Assembly (NCBI GenBank): GCA_016124375.1 | Contig: WGNV01000004.1 | Coordinates: 1-64,000, forward strand | Source of the DNA: Tepidisphaera sp. | GTDB lineage: Bacteria; Planctomycetota; Phycisphaerae; Phycisphaerales; UBA1924 | Reading direction: 5' to 3' | Length of the DNA: 64,000 nt | Part shown: positions 8,077 to 54,464 of the stretch, in pieces | Numbering within the stretch: the first letter of the stretch is position 1 | Layout of the letters: each line of letters starts with the position of its first letter | Program-made: the position numbers and the translations under genes | The notes under the pieces: generated by a model | The model's database searches: none | Told to the model about the DNA's origin: nothing | Seen by the model: only the letters and a program-made list of their open reading frames with translations

Positions 8077-8098
8077 GGAGAAAGTTAGGCGGAGGAAT

Positions 8099-8188
8099 CG
8101 GCATTCGGCATTCGGCATTCGCTGGCGCGGCTGCCCGGTGGGTTTCCCTGTCTTTCAACGAATGCCGAATCACGAATGCCGAATGCCG
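8099..8188. repeat. Inverted array of GGCATTC/GAATGCC heptamers (family shared with 54.4 kb)
   Basis: Left arm 8099-8121 cggcattcggcattcggcattcg; right arm 8156-8188 caacgaatgccgaatcacgaatgccgaatgccg. Confidence 0.93.
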
Positions 8189-20304: not shown

Positions 20305-20338
20305 GACCCGGGCTCGTCGAGCGCCCGGGTCTTTTTTT
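20305..20338 (+). terminator. Rho-independent terminator after secretin
   Basis: gacccgggc-tcgtcgagc-gcccgggtc followed by T7. Confidence 0.9.
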
Positions 20339-22645: not shown

Positions 22646-23220
22646 CGAAATTGCCAAAGGGCTAAATTGCTAAATGGCTAAATTTAGACCTTCGCGTATG
22701 GGCAGTTGACAGAACTTTGGAGCGAAGATGGCACGCGGGCGGTTGAAACCTGAGTTTTTGGAGCGAGCCGAATCGTTCAGCGATCGGTGCGTGGCAGTGG
22801 CGGAGCAACTGGCTGCGGACGGGAGGTTCTTGCGAATTGTGGAGCAGTTGGCCGCGGCTGGCTCGTCGGTGGGTGCGAACCTCGCTGAGGCTGACGAAGC
22901 CATGAGCACGAAGGACTTTCGGAAGTGTTTGGCGATCGCGACGAAAGAACTGGCAGAGACGCGGTTTTGGCTGCGGCTTTGTATTCGACGGAAGTGGGTG
23001 CCCGAAGGACGCCTTTCGTCGTTGCTCGAGGAACTCACAGAGATCAAGACGATCGTCGGTTCGATTCTGAAGGGCACGCAGTGGGAGTCCACGAAGAAAC
23101 CCGCCCGAAGTTTCACGGGACGACCGATCCGAGAAACCCAATCGAATGCACGCCCGGCAATGGAATCTCGTCGCACCTCTGATTTAGCCATTTAGCAATT
23201 TGGTATTTAGCAATTTGGAG
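22646..23220. mobile_element. Putative small inverted-repeat-bounded element carrying a four-helix-bundle gene, inserted between iscS and iscU
   Basis: 22664-22683 aaattgctaaatggctaaat is the exact reverse complement of 23182-23201; the partial match extends to ~40 bp with internal 7-8-mer repetition on both sides. Confidence 0.65.
22728..23195 (+). CDS. Four-helix-bundle protein (S23 / 23S rRNA intervening-sequence protein family)
   Basis: FLERAESFSDRCVAVAEQLA..RFLRIVEQLAAAGSSVGANLAEADEAMSTKDFRKCLAIATKELAETRFWLRL: hallmark of the family. The stop codon lies inside the right inverted repeat. Confidence 0.85.
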   Translation: MARGRLKPEFLERAESFSDRCVAVAEQLAADGRFLRIVEQLAAAGSSVGANLAEADEAMSTKDFRKCLAIATKELAETRFWLRLCIRRKWVPEGRLSSLLEELTEIKTIVGSILKGTQWESTKKPARSFTGRPIRETQSNARPAMESRRTSDLAI

Positions 23221-26191: not shown

Positions 26192-29058
26192 CACCTGGGA
26201 ATCGTCGGGCGGGGCGGGCGGCGGCGCTTGGGTCGCGGCGAGGCCGGCTCCTGCTCGATCTTGGGAATCGGCAGTCCGTCGTCCCACGTTGGCGTGGGCA
26301 GGGTCGAACCGGAGTGTGACGCTGCCTTCCAAGGTGAGCCGGCTCCTTCCGGATCGGTTTGCCAGACGTCGCGCATGCGCTGCACGCGTTCCAGGATCGT
26401 TTCGCTGCTGAGGCGACCTGCTTGCCGCTCGATGAGGAGCGGAAACGACAGGGGCGTCGGGCGGCGAGTGACCACGATACGCAGGTGGCCCTCGCTCAGG
26501 CGCTGGCAGGTGCGCCCCAGGCGGCTTTCCTCGAAGTGGCGCTCCATGACTTCGCGCCGGGCCTGGGCAAGCAGCAGGTTGCCGGGGTCGAACTCGCTTA
26601 GCACGTCATAGATGAGAGACGAGTTGGCTTGCAGTTGCTTCCCGCTGCGAGCGCGGCCCGGCATGCTCTGAATGACCAGCCCCGACACGCGAGCCACCTC
26701 GCGGAACTGCAGTTTGGCGAGGAGGCTCGTGCCGGCACTCTCCGCGGCGTCGGCGGCGAGATTGGTCACGCTGAACAACTCGGGCGTGAGCAGCGTTTCG
26801 AAGGGCACGTCCTCGGCGGAGAGGATTTCGAAGCCGTAATCGTTGGCGGCGATGGAGAACGTGGCTTTGCGCTGACGCGTGAGGCGCAGGGCGATGATGG
26901 CCGCGAGGCCGCCGTGCACGAGGCGGCCCTCGAACGGGAACACGAACGCGTGCGTGCCCTCGCGGGTGCGGGTGATCTCGATCAGCACATCGCGGGCGGC
27001 GGGGATGATGCTCTCGCGTTGTTGAATCGCGGCAACGGGCAGGGCGTGGGCCAGTTCCGCACAATCGGCGCGGCCTTGGCCCAGTTCTTCGAGGGTTTGG
27101 CGGATGGCACGGGAGAGGGATTCGGAGATGGGGAGACGCGTGCCGCCCCAGATGGGCGTGAGGTGAGCCTGGCCGTAACCGGGGCGGACATACGCGACCA
27201 TGTCCTGGAACATCACGTAGCGCAGCACTTTGCCCGCGAAGACGAACTTCTGGCCTTCGCTGAGCCCGGCGATGAAGTTCTCTTCGATGCGCCCGAGGCT
27301 GCGCCCGCCCAGGAAGCGGATCTCGACGGTGCTGTCGCCCGTGATGGTGCCGACGTTGAAGCGGTGCAGTTGGGCGATTCGCGGGGACTTGACGACCATG
27401 CGGCCATTGTCTTCTTCGACGCGCCGATAGTCCGGGTAGGCCTTGAGTGCTTCGCCCCCGTGGCGGACCTGGGCGAGGCACCAGTCGAAGTCGTTGCGGG
27501 AGAGATCGCGGAACGACCAGGCGCGGCGGACTTCGTCGTAGAGCGCCTCGGGCTCGAAGCCGCCACCTAAGGCGCAGGTGACCATGTGCTGCGTGAGCAC
27601 GTCGAGCGGGGCGACGATCGCGTCGCGCGGCTCGACTTCGCCCCGCGACAGGGCGTCGCGGGCGGCGACGATCTCGATGAGTTCGAGCGCGTGCGTCGGT
27701 ACGCACGTCACGCGGCAGGGCGTGCGGGGGCGATGGCTGGAGCGCCCGGCGCGCTGCACGAGCCGCGCGATGCCCTTGGGCGAACCGATCTGGAGGACAC
27801 GCTCGACGGGCGCGAAGTCGACGCCGAGGTCGAGCGAGGAGGTGGCGACGACGATGCGGATGGCGCCGGACTTCAGGCCCGCCTCGACGCGCTCGCGTTC
27901 GGCGCGGTCGATGCTGCCGTGATGCAGGGCGGCGAGTTCGGTCCACTCGGGGCGAATCGCGAGCAGTGCGTGGAACCAGCGCTCGGCCTGACTGCGGGTG
28001 TTGGTGAAGATGAGCGTGGGCTCGCGCGGGTCGAGAGCCGCGGCGACTTCTTGGACCATGACGAGGCCCAGGTGCCCGGCGAGGGGTAGGCGCAAACCTT
28101 CGCGGGGCAGGATGCTGTCGATGACGACGGGACGATCCATGTCGGCGCGGATGACGACGGGGTCGGCTGTTTGGGTGGCACCTCTCTCCAGAGCGGTGCG
28201 GCGCGGGGCCCCCACTGCCGCCCGCGCGGCTTCGAGCGCGTTGGGCAGCGTGGCCGACAACGCCCACGTGCGGCACATAGGCGACAACTCGCGCAGGCGG
28301 GCCATGGCCAGTTCGGTCTGGCTGCCCCGCTTGCTGGCGAGCAGTTCGTGCCATTCGTCGAGGATGACGCAGCGGACGCCGCCAAGTTGGGCGCGGGCGT
28401 CGGGGCGGGTCAGCAGCAGCGTAAGCGACTCGGGCGTGGTGACCAGCACGTGGGGCAGGCGTTCGCGCTGGCGGGCGCGGACGCTCGAACTCGTGTCGCC
28501 CGTGCGGCTTTCGACGATGAGGCCGGTGTCGAGCTCGTCCACCGGCTCGCGCAGGGCCAGTTCGATGTCGCGCGACACAGCGCGGAGCGGCGTGACGTAG
28601 ATGATCTTGAGCCCGGGGGACAGCCCCGCGGGCGAGCGCGAGTCGCGGATAAGTTCGGCCAGCGGGCCTAGATACGCGGCGTAGGTTTTTCCCGAGCCGG
28701 TAGCGACCTGCACCAAGCCGCTGCGGCCCGCCAAATAGGCTCGCCAGCAATCGCGCTGAAACTCCCAGGGCGTCCAGCCCTTGGAGGCGAACCAGGATTC
28801 GATCGGGGCGAGCGGGCCAGACTCGCTGTGCAGTCGTTGCTCGTTTCGTGACGCTTCAGGTGAGGCTTTGAGAAGTTTCGGGTGTCGCGGGCGTGGGACC
28901 CGGACCTTCGAAGACTCAGGTCCGGCGTCTGAGTCAGTCGCATCCGGACCTGGAGGCGTCGAGTCGAGCGGAGCGTGCGGCGAGCCTGTCGTGTCGCCCG
29001 CTCGCTTACGCGTCTTCCCCGAAGAGCCCGAGTTGTTGGTCGGTTTTCGCTTCGCCAT
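26188..29058 (-). CDS. Ligase-associated DEAD/H helicase (Lhr-Core type)
   Basis: VQVATGSGKTYAAYLGPL, ILDEWHELLASKRGSQTELA, LSATLPN, RLVQRAGRSSHRP, C-terminal winged-helix/DUF4910-like region. Confidence 0.93.
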   Translation of the reverse strand: MAKRKPTNNSGSSGKTRKRAGDTTGSPHAPLDSTPPGPDATDSDAGPESSKVRVPRPRHPKLLKASPEASRNEQRLHSESGPLAPIESWFASKGWTPWEFQRDCWRAYLAGRSGLVQVATGSGKTYAAYLGPLAELIRDSRSPAGLSPGLKIIYVTPLRAVSRDIELALREPVDELDTGLIVESRTGDTSSSVRARQRERLPHVLVTTPESLTLLLTRPDARAQLGGVRCVILDEWHELLASKRGSQTELAMARLRELSPMCRTWALSATLPNALEAARAAVGAPRRTALERGATQTADPVVIRADMDRPVVIDSILPREGLRLPLAGHLGLVMVQEVAAALDPREPTLIFTNTRSQAERWFHALLAIRPEWTELAALHHGSIDRAERERVEAGLKSGAIRIVVATSSLDLGVDFAPVERVLQIGSPKGIARLVQRAGRSSHRPRTPCRVTCVPTHALELIEIVAARDALSRGEVEPRDAIVAPLDVLTQHMVTCALGGGFEPEALYDEVRRAWSFRDLSRNDFDWCLAQVRHGGEALKAYPDYRRVEEDNGRMVVKSPRIAQLHRFNVGTITGDSTVEIRFLGGRSLGRIEENFIAGLSEGQKFVFAGKVLRYVMFQDMVAYVRPGYGQAHLTPIWGGTRLPISESLSRAIRQTLEELGQGRADCAELAHALPVAAIQQRESIIPAARDVLIEITRTREGTHAFVFPFEGRLVHGGLAAIIALRLTRQRKATFSIAANDYGFEILSAEDVPFETLLTPELFSVTNLAADAAESAGTSLLAKLQFREVARVSGLVIQSMPGRARSGKQLQANSSLIYDVLSEFDPGNLLLAQARREVMERHFEESRLGRTCQRLSEGHLRIVVTRRPTPLSFPLLIERQAGRLSSETILERVQRMRDVWQTDPEGAGSPWKAASHSGSTLPTPTWDDGLPIPKIEQEPASPRPKRRRPPRPTIPRW
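28171..28199. repeat. Half-copy of the GGTGGCACC...GGTGC palindrome, in frame inside the helicase gene
   Basis: ttgggtggcacctctctccagagcggtgc, encoding RTALERGATQ on the minus strand. Confidence 0.85.
28897..28951. repeat. Hairpin-family repeat (CCGGACCT-TCGAAGACTC-AGGTCCGG plus third complementary arm)
   Basis: 28897-28929 is identical over 33 nt to 39954-39986; extra CCGGACCT at 28944-28951. Confidence 0.9.
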
Positions 29059-38980: not shown

Positions 38981-39100
38981 GGAGAGAGACGAAGAGACGA
39001 AGTGCCGGAGAGACGAAGTTCAGGAGACACACGATACGGCGGCGACTGCACTTCCGAACTTCGTCTCTTCGTCTCTTCGGAACTTCGTCTCTTTCTTACT
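38981..39100. repeat. Inverted array of GAGACGAA/TTCGTCTC octamers
   Basis: gagagagacgaagagacgaagtgccggagagacgaagttc ... gaacttcgtctcttcgtctcttcggaacttcgtctcttt. Confidence 0.9.
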
Positions 39101-39872
39101 TCTTCGCCGGGCAGGCCGCGTGGTCCAAGTACCACCTGGCTTCGCCCGCGGCGGGCATGGGGACGAAGACGCCGCTGCCGGGGTGCGTGGGCCTCAGGGT
39201 GGCTTGTTCCTGGGCGAGCACGCCCGGCAGGCGCTCGGGGCCGGTGGCGAAGATGGCGACGAAGCGGCTCGAGTTGATGAGGCGACGGCCCATACCGACG
39301 CTCGCGCCGGGCTGGGTGGAGAGGAGTTGTTCGTCGTCGGCCCACGCGCCGACCGGGCCCAGCGAGCCATCGGGCTCGAGCGACAACAGCACAAAGTCGA
39401 GGCGGTCCTGGCCTGGGGGTCGCCAGCCCAGGGTTTCGCGGAGCGTCGCGGAATACTGGGCGGCGGCATCGGGGGCGAAGGGGATGGCGTGGGCCTGCTC
39501 GCGGGGGATGCCGCTGGCTTCGAGCATGACGTCGCACAGGGCGAGCCAGCGCGGGCCCGCGGGACCGGGGGATTGGCCCGGGGCGATGGCGGCTTCGTCG
39601 GTGAGCCACAGGCGGGTGCGCGACCACGGAAACTCGCGATAGGGCGGGTCGTACATCAGGCGCATGAGGACGGGTTCGAGGGCCGGGGCGGGGCTGGCGG
39701 CCAGGTGGAAGTCGCCAAAGGCGCGGACGCAGTTGGTGGCGTGGATGTAGAGATCGGCCAACAGGGCGTCGATGGCGGCGTCGGCGTCCTTGCGGATCAT
39801 CACCTCGCCAGAGAGGCGGGGGCGACGGGGCACGGGCTGGGTGACCAGCTCAATCGGCGGTTCGTCGGGCAC
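39096..39872 (-). CDS. Conserved hypothetical protein
   Basis: Coherent ORF MPDEPPIELVTQPVPRRPRLSGEVMIRKDADAAIDALLADLYIHATNCVRAFGDFHLA; no family recognised. Confidence 0.65.
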   Translation of the reverse strand: MPDEPPIELVTQPVPRRPRLSGEVMIRKDADAAIDALLADLYIHATNCVRAFGDFHLAASPAPALEPVLMRLMYDPPYREFPWSRTRLWLTDEAAIAPGQSPGPAGPRWLALCDVMLEASGIPREQAHAIPFAPDAAAQYSATLRETLGWRPPGQDRLDFVLLSLEPDGSLGPVGAWADDEQLLSTQPGASVGMGRRLINSSRFVAIFATGPERLPGVLAQEQATLRPTHPGSGVFVPMPAAGEARWYLDHAACPAKK

Positions 39873-39953: not shown

Positions 39954-39986
39954 GACCCGGACCTTCGAAGACTCAGGTCCGGCGTC
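39954..39986. repeat. Hairpin-family repeat (CCGGACCT-TCGAAGACTC-AGGTCCGG)
   Basis: Identical over 33 nt to 28897-28929. Confidence 0.93.
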
Positions 39987-53204: not shown

Positions 53205-53221
53205 GCGGGCTCAATGTGACG

Positions 53222-53338
53222 CCGGAGGTGAGTCTTCGAACCTCCGGGTCGATTCGGACCGCATCTCTCGCGTGCGACACTCAAGACATTCGCGAACTCG
53301 CTCGCTCGACCCGGATCTTCGCCAAGCCTCAGATCCGG
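53222..53338. repeat. Inverted pair of hairpin-family repeats between dnaB and the LysR gene
   Basis: CCGGAGGT-gagtcttcga-ACCTCCGG (53222-53247) and, inverted, CCGGATCT-tcgccaagcctc-AGATCCGG (53311-53338). Confidence 0.88.
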
Positions 53339-53352
53339 CTTCTCCCGAGCGC

Positions 53353-54261
53353 TCACTTCGCAATCGTGCGCACCGACGCCAGCAGTTGCTTTTCGAAGGC
53401 CGCCGACGCGGCACTGGGCTCGCGATCGCGCCGCCTGATGATCGCCAGCTGGCGCGTGAGCCTCGCATCGCGGCACGTCAGCCCCTCGCCCGGGGGCAAC
53501 GCAAACCGGCTCACCAGCGCCAGGCCGATGCCCGCCGCGACCATGCTCTTGATGGGCTCGATCGACCTGAGTTCCATCACGACATCGAGCGTGACGCCCG
53601 CGTTCCGCGACGCGGCATCCACCACCGCCCGCACCGCCGTCCCCGCCTCGAAGGCCACGAAGGGCTCGCGTTCGACGTCCTTCCACCGAAAGCCGCCGGT
53701 CTTTTTCTTGTCGGCGTCGATGTCGCGCAGCGGGTGGGCCGGAGGGGTGATCAACCTGAGTTCATCCTGCACCAGCGGGATACGAAGCAGCACATCCGAG
53801 TCGGGCACATCGACGGGCAGCGTGACGATGCCGAGGTCGAGCTCGCCCCGGATCACCGCCTCGGCGACCTGCGCCGAGCCGACCTCTCGCACGAAGAACC
53901 GCAGCCCGGGGTGCGCCCGCCGCAGAGCTCGCACCACGCCCGGGAGCAGGTAGGCCGTCGCCGTCGCGCCGCCCCCGACGCGAATCGACCCTTGCTCAAG
54001 ACCTTGCAGGCGCCGCACCGCGGCCAGCCCCGCGTCAGCCGCGGCCAGCGCGTCCTTGGCATGCCGCAGAAACACCCGCCCCGCTTCGGTCAGTTCCACG
54101 CCCTTGCCGGTGCGATGCAACAGCGTCGCGCCTAGGTCGCGTTCAAGCTTCTTGACCACCGCCGACAGCGCCGGCTGCGTCACGCCCAGCGACCGAGCCG
54201 CTCGCGTCAGGTGCTGCTGCTCGCCGATCTCGCGGAAGTAGCGAAGGGGCGTGAGTTCCAT
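53353..54261 (-). CDS. LysR-family transcriptional regulator
   Basis: MELTPLRYFREIGEQQHLTRAARSLGVTQPALSAVVKKLERDLGATLLHRTGKGVELTEAG. Confidence 0.94.
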   Translation of the reverse strand: MELTPLRYFREIGEQQHLTRAARSLGVTQPALSAVVKKLERDLGATLLHRTGKGVELTEAGRVFLRHAKDALAAADAGLAAVRRLQGLEQGSIRVGGGATATAYLLPGVVRALRRAHPGLRFFVREVGSAQVAEAVIRGELDLGIVTLPVDVPDSDVLLRIPLVQDELRLITPPAHPLRDIDADKKKTGGFRWKDVEREPFVAFEAGTAVRAVVDAASRNAGVTLDVVMELRSIEPIKSMVAAGIGLALVSRFALPPGEGLTCRDARLTRQLAIIRRRDREPSAASAAFEKQLLASVRTIAK

Positions 54262-54326
54262 GGGGTGAAGGGTAACGCGCGTGATCGCGACAACGGGTGG
54301 GTCGGGCTTGCCGGGCAATTGGCTTT

Positions 54327-54464
54327 CGGCATTCGGCATTCGTGATTCGGCATTCGTTGGAAGACAAGGCGCTCGCGGCCGCGCGTCTGCCGCCCGATCT
54401 CGCATCACGAATGCCGAATGCCTAATGCCGAATGCCGTCCCACTCATGCCCAATGCCGAATGCC
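54327..54464. repeat. Inverted array of GGCATTC/GAATGCC heptamers
   Basis: 54327-54359 is identical over 33 nt to the reverse complement of 8156-8188; right arm atcacgaatgccgaatgcctaatgccgaatgccg...caatgccgaatgccgg. Confidence 0.93.

Follow-up and report, generated by a model that had tools for sequence, protein, structure and literature searches.

Hairpins resembling REP elements, often in BIME-like inverted pairs, and a candidate RAYT-like transposase in a Phycisphaerales-type planctomycete

The window, that is, the whole stretch of 64,000 bp analysed here (G000:C4:1-64000), belongs to genome G000, an incomplete assembly of 3.1 Mb in 16 contigs that is 76% complete. It carries four short hairpins, two of which form an inverted pair between the convergent genes for dnaB and a LysR-type regulator, with 13 bp separating the dnaB stop codon from the first unit of this pair. 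The features are as follows (CM, covariance model):

28898-28929, minus strand: probable REP unit 1; GACG tag (CGTC on the plus strand at 28926-28929), hairpin 28900-28925, GT tail; CM match C4:28896-28930, minus strand, 52.2 bits; intergenic by the coding HMM
39955-39986, minus strand: probable REP unit 2; stem CCGGACCT, the same as in unit 1; CM 54.9 bits
51270-53204, plus strand: dnaB, flanking gene outside the element; Pfam DnaB_C 335.8 bits, DnaB 83.7 bits
53218-53249, plus strand: probable REP unit 3; GACG at 53218-53221, hairpin 53222-53247, stem CCGGAGGT, GT tail; CM 55.7 bits
53309-53342, minus strand: probable REP unit 4; hairpin 53311-53338, stem CCGGATCT, 12-nt loop, GT tail; CM 48.8 bits
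53218-53342: BIME-like inverted pair of units 3 and 4; hairpins 63 bp apart, tags facing outwards
53353-54453, minus strand: LysR-type regulator, flanking gene outside the element; Pfam LysR_substrate and HTH_1

An earlier note on this DNA had placed hairpins at 28900-28925, 39957-39982, 53222-53247 and 53311-53338, and all four are confirmed with the stems it described. A stem-neutral pattern matches the first three in the window against a chance expectation of 0.05, and no Rfam family reaches its gathering threshold there. The coding HMM places all four units outside genes; unit 1 has an Lhr-type helicase gene on one side and a DNA ligase gene on the other, and unit 2 lies in a divergent intergenic region upstream of a topoisomerase VI B-like gene. 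The members of the pair after dnaB differ in stem and in loop type; unit 4 has the tag GAAG (CTTC on the plus strand at 53339-53342).

The family extends over the whole of genome G000, where a strict pattern, CCGGANNTTCGN{3,10}CTCANNTCCGG, finds 82 copies and the reversed pattern, used as control, none. A covariance model and genome scan, which the earlier note had proposed, gave 105 matches at E ≤ 1e-3, a count that depends on the pattern since the model was built on strict-pattern matches; many of the additional copies are degenerate partners of known ones. Among 40 relatives the strict pattern occurs in five (G017 with 46 copies, G040 with 9, G019 and G006 with 3 each, G003 with 2) and the hairpins are thus near-absent from most of them. 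When GACG and GGG are added to the pattern, it is present solely in G000 among 299 genomes of its class.

On one strand the unit has the sequence 5'-GACG-CCGGAnnT-GA-G(n)C-GA-AnnTCCGG-GT-3'. The tag GACG stands at the 5' foot of 80 of the 82 strict copies (GAAG and GATG replace it once each) and can partly pair with the 3' GT(C), whose GT varies hardly more than the tag (T at +2 in 78/82). Neither the GACG tag nor the 3' GT, both conserved parts of the unit, appears in the earlier note. What that note took for a conserved loop is more than a loop: the GAGTCTTCGA strand has a GA/GA internal mismatch here, followed by an inner G-C pair and a variable apical loop. Beyond tag and tail the 82 copies have no comparably strong conservation, apart from T being favoured at -5 and an enrichment of CT, at -6/-5 (17 versus 4 expected) and at -12/-11 (16 versus 4 expected, p ~2e-6, or ~5e-4 when corrected for the positions and dinucleotides tested). 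CT is the published cut site of TnpA_REP (PMC8266576).

The strict pattern leaves two stem pairs adjoining the closing T-A pair unconstrained, and it is these that bear on whether pairing or sequence is kept. Watson-Crick pairing at both is seen in 79 of 82 copies (shuffled mean 22.4, maximum 35) and in 41 of the 44 distinct sequences (shuffled mean 8.3, maximum 20), with the types CC/GG, GG/CC, GA/TC, AC/GT and some rarer ones. The covariation score is 0.219, while shuffles give 0.072 and slid controls no more than 0.062; as copies within one genome are related, these figures are not strict probabilities, and they nevertheless exclude an explanation by sequence conservation only. The stems change in a compensated manner, so the earlier suggestion that base pairing rather than sequence is kept holds good. 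That note had named two outcomes that would speak against the family, a genome scan without further copies and stem changes that are not compensatory; we found the opposite of both, 82 to 105 copies and compensated changes.

Gene context, as called by a simple codon HMM, is intergenic for 74 of the 82 copies, versus ~15% intergenic sequence in the window; 42 of these lie between tandem, 20 between convergent and 11 between divergent genes, with one unresolved. Such a distribution raises the question of whether the hairpins are mainly terminators or stabilisers of mRNA 3' ends that are kept at gene ends, acting in both directions between dnaB and the LysR gene. The convergent copies, the many copies just past stop codons and the strong RNA folding of the pair after dnaB (z -2.5) would agree with this, and effects on mRNA ends have been described for REPs in other bacteria (PMC3733652). 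However, no T tract follows the GC-rich stem, which continues with GT(C/G) on its 3' side, and a terminator scan was negative at both loci scanned, which led us to reject an intrinsic terminator as the main explanation. The 11 divergent copies do not suit this reading either; GACG, the GA/GA mismatch and the orientation of the pairs are not terminator features, and the near-absence of the hairpins from most relatives and their tie to a transposase gene (see below) also stand against it. We consider it unlikely.

The remaining copies are found in coding regions, in frame and in linkers, loops or inter-domain stretches. Their host proteins, recognised by eye, are NadE, MutM, RlmKL (a pair), an RluA-like protein (a pair) and an amidohydrolase-like protein. 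In-frame units were seen at the loci L220, L217, L207, L022 and L226, where they encode peptides such as DAGPESAKVRV and DAGDEALRISG. Relatives have nadE without the unit-encoded peptide, but the linker is hypervariable there, so this comparison gives no clean empty site.

The inverted arrangement after dnaB, which the earlier note had likened to a BIME, turns out to be the rule. Genome G000 has 22 close pairs where 0.4 are expected at random, and all 22, the dnaB pair among them, are inverted in a single orientation (-+) with the tags outside. Their spacers measure 13-63 bp, most commonly 18 bp. A 26-mer is joined to a 28-mer in 13 pairs, 27 to 27 in six and 27 to 28 in three, while 26-26 and 28-28 pairs are absent (0/22; 4.6 expected, P = 0.0025). 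Pairs with the same stem number two of 22 (P = 0.07), weak as sole evidence of heterodimers; the lack of 26-26 and 28-28 combinations has better support than a preference for stem heterodimers. Preferential heterodimers are known in other REP families, where avoiding removal of the hairpin has been suggested as their role (PMC3733652).

A REP-associated (RAYT) transposase, which the earlier note had recommended looking for, was found on another contig with the same hairpins on both sides:

G000:C16:20433-20936: candidate RAYT-like transposase; HUH/Tyr protein of 181 aa

A Pfam Y1_Tnp search of G000 missed this cognate gene and gave five others, none near a strict-pattern hairpin; they are true IS200 proteins, a RAYT embedded in LeuRS and a class-3-like gene, and were rejected as candidates. 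The route to the cognate gene led solely through G040, where a weak-scoring Y1 gene (38.3 bits, passing Y1_Tnp, PF01797) lies 53 bp from a hairpin and is flanked by hairpins on both sides; with its protein as query we obtained the G000 relative at 42% identity. The latter has THVH as its HUH motif and YIAEH as its Tyr motif, and GACG-CCGGAGGT hairpins on both flanks, with one upstream and two, as an inverted pair, downstream (hairpins at 20308, minus, 20362, plus, and 20979, plus). Since it has no match to Pfam Y1_Tnp and scores 15.1 bits against REP_Tyr_transpos (NF047646), versus a cut-off of 80, we file it as a divergent RAYT-like lineage and not as an NF047646 equivalog. Enzymes of this sort escape detection by standard profiles (Pfam, NCBIfam).

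When species genomes were scanned, 161 relatives of the transposase were detected, of which 80 were kept; those with names are mostly MAGs of Phycisphaerae/Planctomycetota. H97, H99 and Y154 are invariant in 67 sequences, and W133 and an N-terminal block, W..GD.RG.R...H..H..GD, are invariant or nearly so. Against the PDB the family profile has TnpA_REP (4ER8) as its best match (E 2.2e-4). An AF2 model of the relative L123 (pLDDT 92.5; not the protein of G000 itself) also finds 4ER8 first in Foldseek, at 5.7e-5 and with moderate overlap (TM 0.48-0.51, rmsd 6.7), and its top 30 matches are all RAYT or IS200/IS605 TnpA chains. By both measures the family is predicted to have the Y1 HUH fold.

Hairpins accompany these relatives as well. 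Within 350 bp of the 80 genes there are many that have stems of ≥7 bp and the GA/GA mismatch, versus five elsewhere in the loci. When any hairpin type is allowed, one type stands on both sides in 40 of 80 loci, versus 3/71 and 2/72 in shifted control windows; the scan found no shared flanking hairpin in the other half, partly because some contigs end nearby. The foot could be classified in 39 loci as nACG (21), nAAG (11) or other (7), proportions that are biased somewhat upward for the first two since ties were resolved toward ACG/AAG. On the RAYT tree the distribution of these two feet is clustered, with 6 changes against an average of 9.4 in shuffles (as low in 8 of 1000), and in the nine-row clade with the G000 protein the foot is ACG wherever it can be read.

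It also appears that stem and enzyme go together. A different stem, CCGAGGCT, flanks the RAYT of G014, G008 and G012. Searched for in 41 genomes in the form seen beside the G012 and G014 genes, it has 97 copies in G014, 15 in G008, 5 in G013, 2 in G012 and none in the other 37, G000 included. The prediction that a stem variant beside another genome's transposase would be dispersed there and absent from G000 thus held, and stem types go with the RAYT of the genome in question. In G017 there are 46 related hairpins, and no close member of the G000 RAYT family was found. Its cognate gene may have been lost, in which case hairpins can persist without a detectable one, or may sit in a gap.

Flanking hairpins around a Y1 enzyme also bring to mind an IS200/IS605-type insertion sequence, of which the dispersed units would be solo ends or deletion derivatives and the C16 gene the transposase. 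The enzyme does belong to the Y1 HUH superfamily, and several relatives have 3-4 close paralogues of it. Yet G000 has one close transposase gene versus ~100 hairpins, the outward-tagged inverted pairs are a BIME and not an IS-end arrangement, flanking units vary in number and orientation from locus to locus, and the best structural match is TnpA_REP and not an IS TnpA; we regard this origin as very improbable. A chance GC-rich hairpin family, or a non-mobile conserved protein-binding or DNA-uptake site, could be imagined in a high-GC genome, as binding sites may also be palindromic and dispersed, but the empty reversed-pattern control, stem variation that is compensated, unlike that of a sequence-specific duplex-binding site, and the tie between stem type and the transposase of the genome, which it leaves unexplained, make it hardly credible.

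Returning to REP elements, we compared the unit with known systems. E. coli REP/BIME with TnpA_REP (4ER8) shares with it the dispersed, intergenic, imperfect palindromes, a 5' foot tetranucleotide, an internal mismatch, inverted pairs and a HUH/Tyr transposase with flanking units, 4ER8 being the best match by profile and by fold. It differs in its tag (GTAG versus GACG here, with a family-wide foot A(C/A)G-CC) and its mismatch (AA-GC versus GA/GA); the stem here closes with CC/GG, and the G000 transposase, unlike the E. coli one, is too divergent for Pfam Y1_Tnp and far under the NCBIfam cut-off.

The CGTC-tagged REPs (Di Nocera 2013, PMC3733652; including Rickettsia RPE and Neisseria dRS3) also have 8-bp stems, inverted pairs and some in-frame copies, and the G000 tag reads CGTC on its complementary strand. 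The published families have CGTC at the 5' end, AT at the stem base, loops of 4-5 nt and a CCA tail, and reportedly lack a dedicated transposase (PMC3733652), whereas in G000 the tag-side strand has GACG followed by a stem starting with CC and then a GT tail, and there is a linked transposase. In a comparison with the text of that paper, tag orientation included, we therefore rejected membership of this super-family, as tag side, stem base, loop and tail all differ. Rickettsia palindromic elements resemble our units in that some lie in frame in protein genes (here NadE, MutM, RlmKL, RluA-like), but the G000 units are mostly intergenic and transposase-linked.

TnpA Y1 class 3 (Quentin 2018, PMC6006769) comprises planctomycete-centred HUH/Tyr proteins of ~178 aa with atypical flanking hairpins, which can be numerous, and is marked by NHVH, W[TA], Y....Q and a CnGA foot. 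The G000 family has xHxH, W[AG], YI..H...GAWVW and an A(C/A)G foot instead, as well as an N-terminal block, WLPGDPRGFR..HR.H.SGDYK, so that by the text of the motif table it falls outside class 3. Outside this class and the CGTC super-family, the G000 unit is placed as a variant of the REP/BIME kind. A separate HUH/Tyr group of the same order (L104, L110 and L116; YFLTWTTHGTWLHGD.RG..., NHVH, VWT, Y....Q) does have class 3 motifs, and one member, L110 (G000:C8), is a protein of G000 without GACG-type hairpins.

From the copy number and tag observed, the covariation, the orientation of the pairs, the genomic context, the hairpins on both sides of the transposase and the link between stem and RAYT, we judge that the hairpins are very probably REP elements, often in BIME-like inverted pairs, of a Phycisphaerales-type planctomycete with a RAYT-like enzyme. 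The comparison with BIMEs made in the earlier note gains support from the dispersed, mainly intergenic family, its tetranucleotide foot, the single orientation of its pairs, the imperfect stem and the RAYT-type transposase, and the elements are REP/BIME-like in all tested structural and genomic respects, the GTAG tag excepted. The enzymes belong to a divergent RAYT lineage whose foot is A(C/A)G-CC.

E. coli TnpA_REP cuts single-stranded REP at CT and needs GTAG and the mismatched state of the stem (PMC8266576). By analogy, this model would fit here with GACG as the foot and GA/GA as the mismatch. A single-stranded unit, for example on the lagging-strand template, would fold into the form given above; the resident transposase would recognise foot tag and imperfect stem and cut nearby single-stranded DNA, and copies would spread between genes and, now and then, in frame into flexible parts of proteins, with selection preserving the pairing and not the stem sequence. 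The CT enrichment and the lineage-specific copy numbers lend indirect support to mobility and cleavage; binding by the enzyme and any secondary effect on mRNA ends are likewise presumed.

REPs have been known for decades, and their spread by RAYTs is still mostly a matter of inference. We lean somewhat towards a new planctomycete-centred REPtron lineage, in which this RAYT family would go with A(C/A)G-CC as guide foot and with hairpins, mismatched at GA/GA, whose stems have diversified with the transposase between genomes. If true, it would give a non-GTAG REP class a dedicated transposase; a 2013 paper reported that the tagged REPs not belonging to the GTAG group lack one (PMC3733652). Here a REP family without GTAG is found together with a plausible cognate enzyme, in a phylum rich in natural tag and stem variants, and dozens of such pairs make tag recognition, guide-directed choice of cut sites and hairpin-enzyme co-evolution testable.

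RAYT-type domains were also seen in frame inside housekeeping genes, namely those for LeuRS (G000, G017, G002), ValRS (G003, G012), MiaA (G004) and RdgB/Ham1 (G019), at these loci:

L093:2780-6700, plus strand: RAYT domain-bearing housekeeping gene, G000:C4 ~470.8-474.7 kb, outside the window
L084:1024-4713, minus strand: further locus of this kind
L090:413-4177, plus strand: further locus
L092:4136-8023, minus strand: further locus
L091:1717-5865, minus strand: further locus
L056:610-2328, plus strand: further locus
L089:3538-5064, plus strand: further locus

By Pfam, host-gene domains flank the RAYT insert on either side (G002 was read by eye only). The RAYT-bearing LeuRS is the sole LeuRS found in G017 and in G000, which is 76% complete. 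These domains seem to have retained HUH and Tyr, look intein-like and are possibly our most surprising observation; a limited literature search found no description of a RAYT insertion in LeuRS.

A second dispersed repeat consists of short tandem heptamer arrays (GGCATTC / CGAATGC) in inverted pairs ~40-50 bp apart, with 17 pattern matches in the genome at ≤1 mismatch. Besides L010, it is found in the window at:

54321-54356 / 54408-54437: heptamer arrays
8098-8121 / 8158-8188: heptamer arrays

Inverted pairs of tandem arrays with 8-bp units (AGAGACGA / CTTCGTCT; AAATTGCT / ATTTAGCA), built like the heptamer arrays, lie in the window at 38985-39027 / 39049-39102 and 22648-22684 / 23182-23218.
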